A stretch of DNA of 64,000 nucleotides from Thermosynechococcus sp. CL-1 (lineage in GTDB: Bacteria; Cyanobacteriota; Cyanobacteriia; Thermosynechococcales; Thermosynechococcaceae). The notes under the pieces are model-generated. The model had not been told where the DNA came from, did not search any database, and saw only the letters and a program-made list of their open reading frames with translations. A program made the translations under genes and the position numbers. Shown piece after piece: positions 57,412-64,000 of the stretch; the stretch's first letter is position 1, and every line of letters begins with the position of its first letter. The stretch is from NCBI RefSeq assembly GCF_008386235.1, contig NZ_CP040671.1, positions 1,490,001 to 1,554,000 of the forward strand, in the 5' to 3' direction.

Positions 57412-60003
57412 ATGAAGCCCATCCGCACGTTTAACGTTCGTCCTCACCTGCCGCAACGTTTGGAACCCCTGCGGGAACTGGCCTACAACCTCTACTGGAC
57501 GTGGAACACGGAGGCGATCGCCCTCTTTCGCCGCCTCGACCCAGAACTGTGGGAGCAAACAAACCATAACCCTGTCGCCCTTTTGGGACGCATTCGCCAA
57601 GATCGCCTCTTGGATGCGGCGGCCGACAACGGCTTTTTGGCACAGATGGAGCGGGTGATCAGCCAATTTCAAGAATATGCCCAGCCTGTGCAGACGTGGT
57701 ACCAGCAAACGCGCACGGACGCGCCTCCCGGCGAGTGTATTGCCTATTTTTCCCTTGAATTTGGCCTCACGGAGTGCCTGCCAATCTATTCGGGGGGCTT
57801 GGGGGTCTTGGCCGGAGATCACCTCAAATCCGCCAGTGACTTGGGACTGCCCTTGGTGGGGGTGGGGCTGCTCTATCAAAAGGGCTATTTTTCGCAGTAC
57901 CTCAGTGCCGATGGCTGGCAGCAGGAACGCTATCCCAGCAACGATTTTTATACCCTGCCCCTCAAGCTGGTCACTACTGGCCAAGGTCAAGAGCATCGGA
58001 TTCGAGTGGACTACCCCAATCGAGAAGTCCAAGCACGGGTTTGGCAAGTTCAGGTGGGTCGGGTTCCCCTTTATCTTTTAGACACAAACCTGCCAGAAAA
58101 CAGTACCTACGATCAGCAGATCACCGACTACCTCTACGGTGGGGACATGGACATGCGCATCCATCAAGAGATGTTGCTGGGCATTGGTGGCGTGCGTCTG
58201 CTCCACAGCTTGGGGTTGCGACCAACGGTTTATCACATGAATGAGGGGCACTCCGCCTTTTTATCCCTAGAGCGCATTCGCCAACTGATCACCGAAGAGC
58301 AGCTTACCTACGATGAAGCCTTGCAGGTGGTCAAGGCCAGCCAGTTGTTTACCACCCATACCCCCGTGCCTGCGGGGATTGATCTGTTTCCTGCCGATAA
58401 GGTGACGTACTATGTCGGCCACTATGCTGAGGCCTTTAACCTCTCACAGCAGGAGTTTCTCTCCTTGGGTCGTGTCAATCCGGGGGCTTTTCAAGAACCC
58501 TTTAGTATGGCGAACCTAGCCATTCATACCGCTAGTTTTGTCAATGGGGTGAGCGCGCTCCACGGTGAAGTCTCCCGCCAGATGTTCCAAGGTCTGTGGC
58601 CCAATCTGCCGCCGACGGAGGTGCCGATTACCTCGATTACCAATGGCGTCCATGCTCGCAGTCGCGTTTCTGAACCATTGCAATACCTGCTGGATATTTA
58701 CCTTGGGCCGCAGTGGTCTGATGCGCCCTTGGCGGATCCCCTCTGGTCGCGGGTCAGCAGTATTCCCGATGAGGAGTTGTGGCGTATCCATGAGATTTGC
58801 CGCTATCAGTTGGTGATGTTTGTGCGATCGCGCCTACAACGGATGCTTGAAGAGCAGGGCGCCTCTAGTGCTGAATTGACGCAAGCGGCAGAAGTGCTGG
58901 ATCCGACCGCCTTGACCATTGGCTTTGCCCGTCGCTTTGCTACCTATAAACGCGCCACTCTCTTTTTGCGGGATGTGGAACGGCTGCGGCGAATTTTATT
59001 GGGATCCGTACCGGTGAAAACGGGAGCGAAGCAGCGGCGGCCGATTGTCCAGTTTGTGATTGCGGGGAAGGCGCACCCCAAGGACAACCCCGGCAAAGAA
59101 CTGATTCAGGAAATTATTCACTTTACGCGCCAAGAGGGCATGGCCAACCACATTGCCTTTATCCCGGATTACGATATGCACGTGGCAAAAATGATGGTGG
59201 CGGGGTGTGATGTCTGGCTGAATACCCCTTTGCGGCCTCAGGAGGCCTCGGGAACCAGCGGCATGAAGGCGGCTATGAATGGGCTACCGAATTTAAGTAC
59301 ATTGGACGGTTGGTGGGACGAGGCGGACTATGTGAAAACGGGTTGGGCGATTGGCCACGGCGAAACCTATGACGATCGCCACTATCAAGATCAAGTGGAA
59401 GCCAATGCGCTCTATGAACGGTTGGAGCGGGATGTCATTCCCCTCTTTTACGATCGCGATGAAAATGGTGTGCCGCGCGGCTGGGTGCAAAAGATGAAGG
59501 CAGCCCTTGCTCTCAATACGCCTCAGTTTAACACCGCGCGAATGGTGCGTGAGTATGCCCATCGCGGCTATTTCCCTGCTAGCGATCGCTCCTTTATCCT
59601 CAAGGAAAATAACTATGCCGCAGCCAAGGAACTGGCTCGCTGGAAAGCCCACATTTTTGAACATTGGTACTCGATTCAGATTATCGGGGTTGAAACCTCG
59701 GCTGAGCACAACCTCGAGGTTAACGAACTTGTGGAAGTCAAAGCCGTGATTGCCCTCGGTGCCCTATTGCCAAGCGATGTGCAGGTGATTTTGTTCCAAG
59801 GGCGGGTGAATGAGGCCGGCACCCTAGAGGAGGCCTGTCCTACCCTGATGACGTTTGTGGGTACCACCCCTGAAGGCCGTAGCCTTTACACCGCTGAGAT
59901 GAGCTACGACACGAGTGGCCACCAAGGCATTGCCCTCCAACTGCTACCGCGCCACGCCTATTTGAGTCATCCCTATGAAATGGGACTGGTTTTGTGGGCT
60001 TAG
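57412..60003 (+). CDS. glgP: Alpha-glucan phosphorylase (short GlgP type)
   Basis: 863 residues from the ATG at 57412. Releases glucose 1-phosphate from glycogen. The N-terminal TIGR02094-type region (RPHLPQRLEPLRELAYNLYWTWN) is the mark of the shorter phosphorylases, distinct from the plant/E. coli MalP type. The PLP lysine is in EASGTSGMKAAMNGLPNLSTLDGWW, and EGHSAFLSLERIR and FARRFATYKRATL are conserved substrate segments. In cyanobacteria two glucan phosphorylases are common; this form is likely the heat-stable one, but that is inference. Confidence 0.96.
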   Translation: MKPIRTFNVRPHLPQRLEPLRELAYNLYWTWNTEAIALFRRLDPELWEQTNHNPVALLGRIRQDRLLDAAADNGFLAQMERVISQFQEYAQPVQTWYQQTRTDAPPGECIAYFSLEFGLTECLPIYSGGLGVLAGDHLKSASDLGLPLVGVGLLYQKGYFSQYLSADGWQQERYPSNDFYTLPLKLVTTGQGQEHRIRVDYPNREVQARVWQVQVGRVPLYLLDTNLPENSTYDQQITDYLYGGDMDMRIHQEMLLGIGGVRLLHSLGLRPTVYHMNEGHSAFLSLERIRQLITEEQLTYDEALQVVKASQLFTTHTPVPAGIDLFPADKVTYYVGHYAEAFNLSQQEFLSLGRVNPGAFQEPFSMANLAIHTASFVNGVSALHGEVSRQMFQGLWPNLPPTEVPITSITNGVHARSRVSEPLQYLLDIYLGPQWSDAPLADPLWSRVSSIPDEELWRIHEICRYQLVMFVRSRLQRMLEEQGASSAELTQAAEVLDPTALTIGFARRFATYKRATLFLRDVERLRRILLGSVPVKTGAKQRRPIVQFVIAGKAHPKDNPGKELIQEIIHFTRQEGMANHIAFIPDYDMHVAKMMVAGCDVWLNTPLRPQEASGTSGMKAAMNGLPNLSTLDGWWDEADYVKTGWAIGHGETYDDRHYQDQVEANALYERLERDVIPLFYDRDENGVPRGWVQKMKAALALNTPQFNTARMVREYAHRGYFPASDRSFILKENNYAAAKELARWKAHIFEHWYSIQIIGVETSAEHNLEVNELVEVKAVIALGALLPSDVQVILFQGRVNEAGTLEEACPTLMTFVGTTPEGRSLYTAEMSYDTSGHQGIALQLLPRHAYLSHPYEMGLVLWA

Positions 60004-60015
60004 GAGAGAATCAGG

Positions 60016-60321
60016 TTGCGATTAACGGATCAGCAAGTGCAGCAAATTTGCCAGACGGTGGCGGCGCTGGTAGGTACCGAAGCCGAAGTGTGGTTGTTTG
60101 GTTCGCGGGTGAACGATGACCTAAAGGGCGGCGATGTGGATTTATTGATCCGGCTGTCTCACCCCGTTGAGAATCCTGCCCTTGTCAGTGCTCGACTCAG
60201 TGCCAAAATCAGCCGCGCCATGGCAGGTCGTAAAGTGGACATTCTCCTCTGGGCACCCAATCTCCAGCGGCAGCCGATTCACGATTGGGCCCAACAAACG
60301 GGAGTTCGCCTTCAATGTTGA
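60016..60321 (+). CDS. MntA-like minimal nucleotidyltransferase (antitoxin candidate)
   Basis: 101 residues from a TTG at 60016 with an AGGAGA element upstream. The Pol-beta nucleotidyltransferase motif is GSRVNDDLKGGDVDLL, giving GS-X9-DxD, with a third acidic region KVDILLWAP. This fits MntA-type antitoxins, which AMPylate HEPN toxins. Seven bases, ATGTTGA, are shared by its end and the start of the HEPN gene, so translation is coupled. It sits at the boundary between glgP and the metal-efflux remnants. Confidence 0.87.
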   Translation: MRLTDQQVQQICQTVAALVGTEAEVWLFGSRVNDDLKGGDVDLLIRLSHPVENPALVSARLSAKISRAMAGRKVDILLWAPNLQRQPIHDWAQQTGVRLQC

Positions 60322-60797
60322 GTCCTCAACTTCAGGAACGCCTACATCACCTCTGCCAACTGGTGGAGCGAGAAGTGGCACACCTACAGGTGACGGATCA
60401 ACGCCTCTTTCAGGAGCCATTTACGGCACGGCGGGCAGCACAATTGGAGGAGGATATTGACCTAGCGGAGCGGGTGGATGCTTTTTTGGCACGCTTTGGC
60501 CGCCTTCAAGATACCCTAGGGAGCAAGCTATTGCCCGCCTATCTGAGTGCCTTTGGCGAACCAGTGGCGACTTTCTTGGAAAACCTTGACCGTGCTGAAC
60601 GGCTCGGCCTTGTGCCCGATGCAGACGCTTGGTTTACCATGCGGCAACTGCGCAATCAAATGGTTCACGATTACATTCGAGATGCAGCCATCTTAGCCAC
60701 GAGTTTGCAAGCTGCCCACGAGTTTGTTCCTGTCCTGATTGAAACTGCAACTCGGTTTTGCCAACGAATAAAGCACAAATCGTCCGGCAACTCCTAG
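60315..60797 (+). CDS. HepT-like HEPN ribonuclease (toxin candidate)
   Basis: 160 residues from the ATG at 60315. Helical HEPN protein with the catalytic motif RNQMVHDY (Rx4HxY type) in MRQLRNQMVHDYIRD (about 115-129), as in HepT toxins whose RNase activity is quenched by AMPylation of the tyrosine. The overlap with the nucleotidyltransferase gene and the order antitoxin then toxin match MntA/HepT pairs. The protein is longer than the usual 130-140 residues because of an N-terminal helix (about 1-30). Function is inferred from motif and context. Confidence 0.88.
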   Translation: MLSPQLQERLHHLCQLVEREVAHLQVTDQRLFQEPFTARRAAQLEEDIDLAERVDAFLARFGRLQDTLGSKLLPAYLSAFGEPVATFLENLDRAERLGLVPDADAWFTMRQLRNQMVHDYIRDAAILATSLQAAHEFVPVLIETATRFCQRIKHKSSGNS

Positions 60798-60856
60798 CTT
60801 TTCATCTTTATTTCATGTGCCTTTGCCAAAATCAGCCTTAGTAACACACTGTGGTA

Positions 60857-61560
60857 ATGCTGAATCGAATTCTTTGGTGGTCAATTGTCCAACGTTGGTT
60901 GGTGGTGCTCGGGGCGATCGCCCTGACGATTTTCGGTATTTTTCAACTGCGGCAAATGCCCCTTGATGTACTGCCAGAGTTTGCGCCCCCCCAAGTGGAA
61001 ATTCAAACGGAGGCACCGGGCCTAGCACCAGAGGAAGTGGAATCGCTGATTACGCTGCCCATTGAAAGTGTCGTCAATGGTACGGCAGGGGTCGAAACTG
61101 TGCGCTCTGCATCGTCTCTTGGCTTATCTGTTGTCAAGGTAGTTTTTAGTTGGCAAACGAATATCTATCAAGCACGGCAACTGATTACCGAGCGGTTGCA
61201 GGAGGTGCGCGATCGCCTACCACCTAATGCCTCACCCCAAATTTCACCGATTACCTCCCCCATTGCCACGATTTTGATGTATGCCCTCCGATCGCCTCGC
61301 CGCACAACAGGTCTCTTTGCAGGACGTGGTGGCGGGGGTGAGTGGCGCCAATGAAAATGCAGCGGGTGGGGTCATTGTCACTCCCGATCAGGAGTTAATT
61401 GTGCGGGGCATTGGTCGGGCAACATCAGTCGCTGATTTAGCGGTGGCGTTGGTGGCGCACCGCAATGGCCAACCAATTCGCGTGCAGGATGTGGCAACAG
61501 TCACGAAAGGGCCTGCCTTAGCGCGGGGAGATGGCAGTGTTAATGGACAGCGAGCAATTA
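60857..61560 (+). pseudogene. Remnant of a CusA/CzcA heavy-metal RND pump (two frame-shifted pieces)
   Basis: The first piece (60857 to about 61275) encodes the CusA/CzcA N terminus: first membrane helix, MPLDVLPEFAPPQVEIQTEAPGLAPEEVESLI and ISPITSPIATILMYAL. The second piece, in another frame from about 61281, matches the next conserved region: PSDRLAAQQVSLQDVVAGVSGANENAAGGV, IVRGIGR and NGQRAIMLIL. About 60 residues are missing between them, and everything after the second piece, roughly 700 residues, is gone. The intact protein is over 1000 residues. It cannot give a functional pump. Confidence 0.85.
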
Positions 61561-61828
61561 TGCTTATATTGACTTCTATATCCAAGAGGGGGAAGACCAT
61601 ATTCCCGTGGGTACTGCTACCGTTACTGCTGATATTGAAACGCCAACGGGCGATCGGGTCACTCTACCGATGACCTATACCCCTGAGGACAAACACTACA
61701 CCGCACGGCTAGCCAATCCCGTGACAGGAGACTATGGTATTGTTCTCCTTAGACCCATCAATGGTCAACCCATTAACAGTCGTTTTCGCTTTCGTTATGA
61801 ACCCAATCAGGGAGGAAGACAAGAATGA
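61559..61828 (+). pseudogene. C-terminal fragment of an unknown periplasmic protein, fused to the CusA remnant
   Basis: In the frame of 61559 the sequence reads YAYIDFYIQEGEDHIPVGTATVTADIETPTGDRVTLPMTYTPEDKHYTARLANPV... to TGA at 61828. It is a beta-rich extracytoplasmic domain without a start of its own. It begins exactly where the CusA homology stops, so a deletion joined the two. The TGA overlaps the next ATG (ATGATG), which indicates that the original gene was the upstream partner of the His-rich protein in an operon. Confidence 0.7.
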
Positions 61829-62679
61829 TGCTACCACGCTTTATCCAACCCACCCTCTTGGGACTGGCCATGCTCTTGAGTGGGGCGATCGCCACCCTTG
61901 GGATTGCCCAGCAACGGCAAATGCCTATGCTTCATGACCACCATCACCTGCACCACAGTCCCAACCCTGAGCACGCAGACGGCTCTGCTACGACCCATAT
62001 GGAACTGCTGAATGCGCCCGCACCTACGCCTCAACAACCAACCACCTTTACGTTGGCGATTCGCACCCACACTGGTGAAGCAGTGACGCAGTTTGAGCGT
62101 TTTCAAGAGGCGCTAATGCACCTGATCATCGTCAGTGATGATTTTCAAGTGTTTCAGCACCTGCATCCCCGCTATCTGGGTGAAGGTCAGTTTCAAGTCA
62201 CAACCACATTGCCCCAGGGGGGAGGCTACACCCTCATTGCTGATTATAAACCCGCTGGCGCTGACGAAACGGTGGCGATGATCCCGATCGCGGCTGAAGG
62301 AACGCCGCCCGCATCGAGTACGCCAACCGCTCAAACCACCCAAGTGATTGGCACAACGGCAGTCGAACTAAAACTCCCTCAACCCCTCAAGGCTGGATCA
62401 GCGGTGGAAGTGGCCTTTCGCCTACGGGATGCTGCCACCCAGCAACCCCTTAGGGATCTGCGCCCCTACCTTGGCGAAGCAGGGCATCTGGTGATTTTGC
62501 GAGACACGACTCCCCTCGAACCTGCTGATTATCTCCATGCCCATGCCGTGGATCATCAACCTAAGGAGGTGATCCGTTTTATGACCCAGTTTCCTGTGCC
62601 CGGACGTTACAAGCTCTGGGGACAGTTCCAGCGGGGTGAGCAAATTGTTACTGCTCCCTTTTGGGTGACGGTGAATTAG
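61825..62679 (+). CDS. Exported His-rich protein, likely metal-related
   Basis: 284 residues. Signal peptide (about 5-28), then a His-rich stretch HDHHHLHHSPNPEH with eight histidines that could bind copper or another metal. Two beta-sandwich-like domains follow (about 55-160 and 180-284), with conserved-looking HLHPRYLGEGQFQV and HAHAVDHQPKEV, again His-rich. GGAGG lies about 10 bp before the start. The gene is intact and sits between an operon fragment upstream and the response regulator downstream. Function is unknown; a metal sink or sensor accessory is plausible from context. Confidence 0.85.
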   Translation: MMLPRFIQPTLLGLAMLLSGAIATLGIAQQRQMPMLHDHHHLHHSPNPEHADGSATTHMELLNAPAPTPQQPTTFTLAIRTHTGEAVTQFERFQEALMHLIIVSDDFQVFQHLHPRYLGEGQFQVTTTLPQGGGYTLIADYKPAGADETVAMIPIAAEGTPPASSTPTAQTTQVIGTTAVELKLPQPLKAGSAVEVAFRLRDAATQQPLRDLRPYLGEAGHLVILRDTTPLEPADYLHAHAVDHQPKEVIRFMTQFPVPGRYKLWGQFQRGEQIVTAPFWVTVN

Positions 62680-62691
62680 GGGATTGCACGG

Positions 62692-63378
62692 ATGAAGGTG
62701 TTGCTGCTTGAAGATGAACCGGATTTAGGAGCCGCCATTCAGCGGGTGTTGCAACGGGAAGGCTATGTGGTGGACTGGGCGCAGGAGGGGGAACTGGTTT
62801 GGGCCTACGTTGAGCAGTTGCAGGTGGACTACAGTGTTGCGATTTTGGATTGGATGGTCCCTCGGCTGTCGGGGTTGGAGGTTTGTCAGCGACTGCGTAT
62901 CCACCACTACACGGTGCCCATTTTGTTGCTGACGGCACGGGATGGCCTCAGCGATCGCGTTCAGGGATTAGATGCGGGGGCAGATGACTATTTGATTAAG
63001 CCCTTTGCAATGGCTGAGTTGCTGGCGCGGCTGCGGGCTTTACTGCGGCGATCGCCCCAATTCCAACCCCAGCAATTGTGTCAAGGGGCATTAACGTTAG
63101 ACTATGGTACCTTCACCCTGAGAAATAGGGCGGGTACTGAGGTGCAGTTAACCGCTAAGGAATTCCAGACCTTGGAATACCTCATGAAACGCCCCCAGCG
63201 GATTCTCAGTAGCGACCAACTGATGATGCAGCTTTGGGAAGTGGGCAGTGAACCCAGTAGTAATGTAGTGGCAGCACAAATTCGCCTGCTGCGCCGCAAA
63301 CTCGCCCTCCTTGGTCAAGAGCACTGCATTGAAACCGTCCATGGGTTAGGCTATCGCTTTGTTGTCGATCATGGTTGA
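62692..63378 (+). CDS. OmpR/PhoB-family response regulator, RppA/NrsR-like
   Basis: 228 residues. The receiver domain has acidic DE-EDEPDLG at the start, the phosphoacceptor Asp in AILDWMVPR (about residue 54), LLLTARD and the Lys in LIKPF. The winged-helix DNA-binding domain (about 130-225) has LTAKEFQTLEYLMKRPQRILSSDQLM and VHGLGYRF. The closest known group is RppA/NrsR, which in Synechocystis controls a nickel-efflux operon. Its last bases overlap the ATG of the kinase fragment by eight bases, so the sensor gene originally followed directly. Confidence 0.92.
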   Translation: MKVLLLEDEPDLGAAIQRVLQREGYVVDWAQEGELVWAYVEQLQVDYSVAILDWMVPRLSGLEVCQRLRIHHYTVPILLLTARDGLSDRVQGLDAGADDYLIKPFAMAELLARLRALLRRSPQFQPQQLCQGALTLDYGTFTLRNRAGTEVQLTAKEFQTLEYLMKRPQRILSSDQLMMQLWEVGSEPSSNVVAAQIRLLRRKLALLGQEHCIETVHGLGYRFVVDHG

Positions 63379-63452
63379 TCATAAGCTCTTCCGCCACAGC
63401 CGCAGTCGTCTTGCCCTCTGGTATGCCCTCACCATGAGCGCTATTCTCAACG
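63371..63452 (+). pseudogene. 5' fragment of a sensor histidine kinase
   Basis: The frame opens MVDHKLFRHSRSRLALWYALTMSAIL, the membrane-proximal start typical of RppB/NrsS-like kinases paired with this regulator. Homology then stops and the frame runs into sequence that belongs to another gene in a different phase, ending at 63556. All functional kinase domains are missing, so this is a deletion remnant. The start overlaps the regulator stop by 8 bp. Confidence 0.8.
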
Positions 63453-64000
63453 GTTGCTTACCTTACAGAAGCACAGCGAGCACAGGTGGCTGTGGGTCAA
63501 GCTGTAAATATCACTGTTGCAGGACTTCCCAATCGTGTTTTCCGCAGTCGTATTGAACTCATTGATAGTGTCGTTGATCCCGCCACGCAGCGAGTTGCGG
63601 TACGCGCCAGCTTGGCTAATTCCAGCCAAGAACTCAAACCTGGTAGCTTTGCGACTGTCCAAATTTTTGACGATCGCCAAACTCGCAATGCCGTGATGAT
63701 TCCCCAGTCCGCGATCGTTGAGCCAGTCGATCAGCCCCCCCTTGTGTTTGTGCAGAATGGTACTGCCTTTGAAGCTGTCGAAGTGACCCTTGGCCAGCGA
63801 GTTGGCGATCAGGTAGAAGTAATTAGCGGTCTTTATGGGGGCGATCGTATTGTTACCCAAGGTACGATGCAACTCTATGCCCAATCTCTGCGGGGGGATA
63901 CCTCAACCGCTACTTCAGACACAAAACCGGAAACAGACTCTCCACCGTGGATTTGGTTGGGGGCGGCTGTTGGGGCGATCGCTCTATTTGGGGCAGGTCT
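63453..64000 (+). pseudogene. C-terminal part of a CusB/CzcB-like RND periplasmic adaptor (5' part deleted, continues past window)
   Basis: In the frame of 63453 the sequence reads VAYLTEAQRAQVAVGQAVNI to DPATQRVAVRASLANSSQELKPGSFATVQIF, VMIPQSAIVEPVDQPPLVFVQNGTAFEAVEVTLGQRVGDQVEVISGLYGGDRIVTQG. These blocks are typical of HlyD/CusB-type membrane fusion proteins. There is no start codon or signal peptide in this phase: the upstream part has been replaced by the kinase fragment. It ends with a hydrophobic segment near the window edge and is open to the last base. It may be inactive, or, less likely, be translated from an unseen start. Confidence 0.82.

Follow-up and report, generated by a model that had tools for sequence, protein, structure and literature searches.

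A degraded copper-resistance-type cluster around a mosaic gene for a His-rich protein in Thermosynechococcus sp. CL-1

Gene content and junctions of the locus

The window analysed here is a 64,000-nucleotide stretch (1490001-1554000) of the 2,647,823-bp single-contig genome of the hot-spring cyanobacterium Thermosynechococcus sp. CL-1, a long-read assembly, and the locus studied occupies window positions 60857-64000. All of its genes, like those of the left flank, lie on the plus strand, and between HepT and FHA the order is CusA pieces, CopC-position protein, H, regulator, CopS stub and CusB. The resident left flank contains an open reading frame for an MNT-type nucleotidyltransferase (60016-60321; weak similarity to NCBIfam MntA, under the cut-off) and its HepT/HI0074-type partner (60318-60797), within which DNA similarity to congener G002 stops at about 60773. 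A CopR-type direct repeat, TTTCAT-N5-TTTCAT (60800-60816), recognized by consensus and position, precedes residues 1-144 of a truncated CusA RND pump (60857-61288; alignment and family models) and a CusA internal block of approximately residues 199-290 (61293-61571), which is frame-shifted relative to the first piece. These are followed by the C-terminal half of an exported protein, similar to SGL_RS01570 of pSYSX, that takes the CopC position in cop operons (61553-61828), a full-length frame for a His-rich exported protein referred to here as H (61825-62679), and, 12 nt downstream, an intact OmpR-type response regulator, RppA/CopR (62692-63378). The first ~26 residues of a CopS-type kinase (63371-63448) and the C-terminal ~45% of a CusB adaptor (63456-64000) complete the locus; the CusB frame extends 91 bp past the window end, to genome position 1554091, and the right flank is an FHA-ABC transporter gene starting just outside the window at genome position 1554216. 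The pieces, frames and order given in an earlier sequence-only reading are borne out by alignments, Pfam and NCBIfam, as are a kinase stub that it put at 27 residues and its operon-like overlaps, ATGATG at 61825-61830 (CopC-position gene and H) and 8 bp at 63371-63378 (regulator and kinase).

Three junctions had been proposed, near 61276, 61559 and 63453. The first break is real but differently placed, with CusA similarity stopping at 61288 (residue 144) and restarting at 61293 (about residue 199); the other two are refined to 61553-61571 and 63448-63456. Alignment to intact relatives shows that ~0.15 kb, 2.5 kb and 2.3 kb are missing at the three breaks. In place of a full-length heavy-metal RND pump of ~1050 residues there are two CusA pieces, of 144 and ~93 residues, that do not share a frame and score 140 bits against a TIGR00914 cut-off of 701, and the periplasmic adaptor is incomplete, so that efflux by the CL-1 remnant pump would not be possible. 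Relocation of the missing pump parts within CL-1 was considered and rejected, the other RND pumps being 24-25% identical to the CusA piece, and so was an origin of CusB or the second CusA piece from another kind of pump, because both find their best matches in CusBA loci, some of which they share.

Small indel errors can occur in assemblies made from PacBio reads alone, but CL-1 was assembled at ~138x PacBio coverage into one circular contig (PMC7005997), the missing blocks of 0.15-2.5 kb are larger than single-base errors, and both flanks agree with congeners in order; judged from the published coverage and assembly form, the artefact that the sequence-only reading allowed for is highly improbable. 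That reading also took the three internal deletions to be recent, and this is supported: the five broken pieces contain no stop codon in 556 codons, so the breakage is young. In a neutral simulation with indels counted, at an assumed rate of 0.1 per substitution, the chance of 556 stop-free codons is down to about 4%, and so low, at 0.02 changes per site, and with stops alone stop-free frames become unlikely at 0.05-0.08 changes per site. Because CL-1 and T. taiwanensis strain TA-1 (NZ_CP070960.1) share 97.0% ANI (PMC9403480), the breaks may date from the divergence of the two or later, and the cluster may be intact in TA-1. The CusA internal block (28 of 34) and CusB (30 of 40) keep the fewest conserved residues of their sets; long decay was rejected as the reason, since stop-free frames make long neutral decay unlikely, and the divergence of both pieces is probably older than the breakage. 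The motif CGATCGCC lies close to the first junction and HIP1 (GCGATCGC) at the FHA start. HIP1 was considered as a cause of the junctions, but with 95 copies in the window its presence is not evidence.

A CopR-type site and a regulator without its kinase

The CopR-type site TTTCATCTTTATTTCAT ahead of CusA is intact, its first TTCAT (60801) standing 56 bp before the CusA start codon. It agrees in consensus and position with a repeat before a CopR-regulated operon, with a spacing of N6 as against N4-5 in the published putative site, TTCATN4-5TTCAT (PMC4182526). In 1.9 Mb of related loci (L048-L135, L166-L185 and L196) there are 178 sites with N6 spacing versus 6-24 for other spacings, and the working spacing is therefore probably six. 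An N6 site lies within 350 bp upstream of 23 of 105 CusA starts, and the identical 16-mer occurs in locus L070, 57 bp ahead of CusA; the whole CL-1 genome contains six N6 sites on both strands. Because this site stands intact ahead of CusA, the operon promoter probably survives in CL-1. The sequence-only reading had mentioned neither this site nor the mosaic nature of H and the unusual place of CusB described below.

Two side observations concern such repeats. Given the N6 enrichment, the published N4-5 spacing may need revision. A divergent pair of CopR-type repeats, two of the six N6 sites, also lies before mntC in CL-1 (G000:C1:381931-381994, in L226), where a similar site has been reported for Synechocystis (PMC4182526); these may be ManR sites or reflect cross-talk, and from the resemblance a ManR-like regulator could use the site at 60800-60816.

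The regulator scores 345 bits against the NCBIfam RppA model NF041734 (cut-off 250), in agreement with its earlier description as intact and RppA/NrsR-like, and PF00072 and PF00486 are matched over nearly its full length. Of 84 near-invariant columns it retains 80, a count that falls in the range seen for intact homologs. In the tree it has a long branch and clusters with the regulator of pSYSX (83/89 support). Its cognate sensor kinase is reduced to the N-terminal stub, and no CopS ortholog was found elsewhere in the CL-1 genome, where the best kinases are at 32-38% to CopS, which led us to reject a move of the kinase to another position. With CopS lost, the regulator would have little or no proper phosphorylation, and would work unphosphorylated, get phosphate from another kinase, or do nothing.

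The mosaic His-rich gene and the same site in congeners

H had been described as an intact His-rich protein, and its frame is indeed open and full-length, yet the gene arose by recombination between two alleles. DNA identity between CL-1 and G002 is 55% in the first 56 codons and 88% in the rest, compared with 88% and 85% in the same two segments between G002 and G178, a member of another cyanobacterial family. A permutation test places a breakpoint at ~62000 (p=0.0002), and a control triple without CL-1 gives p=0.19. H is a mosaic, with a divergent first ~56 codons and a remainder of the congener H type. The last 684 nt roughly track the species tree, and the 3′ part is under purifying selection, with a dN/dS of 0.20 to G002 and 9.2 replacement versus 20.8 silent changes on the CL-1 side.

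In the structural model of H, a low-confidence His-rich N terminus is followed by two beta-sandwich regions modelled with confidence. Because Met98, His99, His112, His114, His221, His238 and His240 are invariant in 40 H homologs, the alignment suggests that H binds metal. H scores 22.6 bits against Pfam PF13115 (YtkA-like; gathering score 25.9) and its homolog in G012 scores 32.3 bits, while a fold search returned generic beta-sandwich matches alone, with low TM-scores. Ubiquitin matches, the sole ones in a sequence search of solved structures, were set aside as chance. In G178, H and ~60 bp upstream (L166 11099-12050) are 85% identical to G002 in unrelated surroundings, indicating that H moves between genomes, and the likeness of these two copies is likely to reflect lateral transfer. 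In the draft assembly of G005, H is frameshifted close to the 3′ end (L025 6432-6456), which is either a sequencing error or a real loss.

The comparison set comprised ten other Thermosynechococcus species representatives, none of which was found to have the efflux genes or a close CusA relative (about 22-26% identity). Five have an empty site, three have H only, and two are without the arrangement. At the empty sites (G003, G004, G006, G007 and G010) HepT, a remnant in G010, lies 24-49 bp from the FHA start, and the junction sequence is nearly the same in G004, G006, G007 and G010 and similar in G003; G004 is the sister of CL-1 in the FHA tree. H stands alone before FHA in G002, G005 and G009, with HepT on its other side in G002 and none seen on the G005 and G009 contigs, and in G001 and G008 there is no HepT at FHA. 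The 5′ part of H and its upstream region are common to G002, G009 and G178, and differ in CL-1. No high-identity donor of the cluster was found, the best matches being at about 74% for CusA and ~63% for the regulator.

The glycogen phosphorylase gene upstream (57412-60003) is full length in CL-1, is represented by partial matches with different end points beside HepT in G003, G007 and G010, and lies ~30 kb from HepT in G002; these differences mark the region as a hotspot for deletions and rearrangements.

The living product of the locus is most likely H, as in congeners that keep H alone. The sequence-only reading had suggested that H and the regulator may have been retained for another job; for H, retention is borne out by the dN/dS and the replacement-to-silent ratio (about 9:21, CL-1 side), and for the regulator it is neither upheld nor contradicted. 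A selected reduced circuit, in which a kinase-free regulator and H are kept as useful – e.g. for metal buffering – would be consistent with an intact site, H and regulator, with the range in which the near-invariant columns of the regulator fall, and with purifying selection on H. However, H is also kept in congeners that lack the regulator, so that selection on H is accounted for by H itself. After such recent breakage the regulator would be expected to be intact even if it were not selected, and its branch is long; we consider such a circuit unlikely.

Origin of the cluster

The best explanation, to which we give a probability of about 0.6, is that the locus is a wrecked CopR-controlled copper-efflux cluster that was imported around a resident H and then cut by three young deletions. 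The ancestor at the HepT/FHA-ABC site would most likely have had H alone, and the ancestral cluster would have run CopR site, CusA, CopC-position protein, H, CopR, CopS and CusB. Foreign cluster DNA recombining with the resident gene would have produced the mosaic H, and the deletions would then have removed half of the adaptor together with the greater part of the pump, the CopC-position protein and the kinase. CopR may now bind the putative site before CusA and drive transcription of H and of the regulator gene itself, with H binding metal in the periplasm. We infer acquisition around H, followed by cutting, because H is mosaic and the congener sites are empty or H-only, and the route may have been natural transformation, which is known in the genus (PMC6567925). 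Against acquisition, H overlaps the CopC-position gene and lies only 12 nt from the regulator, as it would in a single native operon, so a resident-H patch in mid-operon fits less simply, and H is patchy in the genus, which makes the history complex.

These same junctions at both sides of H are what a vertical remnant would have. In that history an ancestor shared by part of the genus had the cluster at this site, other lineages lost all of it or retained nothing except H, and loss is slowest in CL-1; that H adjoins this FHA gene in G002, G005 and G009 as well, and that its last 684 nt roughly agree with the species tree, would also fit. Yet the clean empty site is almost identical in sequence in the sister species G004 and four further ones, which independent deletions would not recreate, and CL-1 does not have the 5′ segment and upstream stretch of H common to G002, G009 and G178. 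We regard such a history as rather unlikely. A purely vertical and dying locus, as the sequence-only reading had allowed, is not favoured, with all ten congeners lacking efflux genes at the site and H mosaic. Further, it is quite unlikely that a resident metal-binding gene, once stand-alone, was rewired in CL-1 into a CopR-autoregulated unit that works without a kinase, through import of a copper operon around it and deletion of the pump.

The terminal position of CusB bears on a further possibility. Writing gene chains with A for CusA, B for CusB, e for the CopC-position protein, H, R for regulator and K for kinase, the commonest are BAeRK and its parts, and RKBAe and RKBAeH also occur; the CL-1 order, AeHRKB, is absent among the ~100 tallied chains holding CusA. 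Circular permutation relates it to BAeHRK (L168) and RKBAeH (L061), and a tandem duplication of a CusB-CusA-CopC-H-CopR-CopS operon with subsequent loss of the outer parts – combinable with either history – would account for CusB being last. On the other hand, CusA is often the first gene after its own CopR-type site, AeRK chains without an upstream CusB exist, so that the left end looks native, and no gene has a second copy left. Duplication is doubtful, and a native CusA-first operon with CusB after the kinase is just as possible.

On the acquisition reading, the locus is an unusually datable case in which an operon was gained through recombination at a resident gene and lost again soon afterwards, and one site in one genus shows the empty, H-only and gutted states. 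It opens two questions to test: does a response regulator persist once its kinase is lost, and can the promoter of a resistance operon capture a stand-alone metal-binding gene?

Relationship to known copper systems

The locus represents a known type of copper resistance cluster in degraded form, and not a new system. Copper was probably the metal of the ancestral cluster, because the gene families, neighbourhood and regulator match cyanobacterial copper resistance as represented by the copMRS and copBAC operons of Synechocystis PCC 6803 pSYSX (PMC4335983), where the row is a DUF305 protein, RppA, RppB, adaptor, CusA and a hypothetical protein. CL-1 shares with pSYSX an RppA/CopR-type regulator (62% identical), the CopS, CusB, CusA and CopC-position protein families, and a CopR-type site. 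Unlike in pSYSX, the pump, adaptor, kinase and CopC-position protein of CL-1 are fragments, CusB is last, and CopM (DUF305) is absent, with a weakly YtkA-like His-rich protein in the cluster. The CusB-CusA-CopC-H-CopR-CopS clusters of other cyanobacteria (L168, L088 and L092) have the same families with H ahead of the regulator, but their frames are not cut up as in CL-1, and CusB, where in the chain, is first. With the stand-alone H loci of G002, G005, G009 and G178, CL-1 shares the last 684 nt of H, and with the first three also the FHA-ABC neighbour, whereas those loci have no efflux genes, no CopR-type site and a different first ~56 codons.
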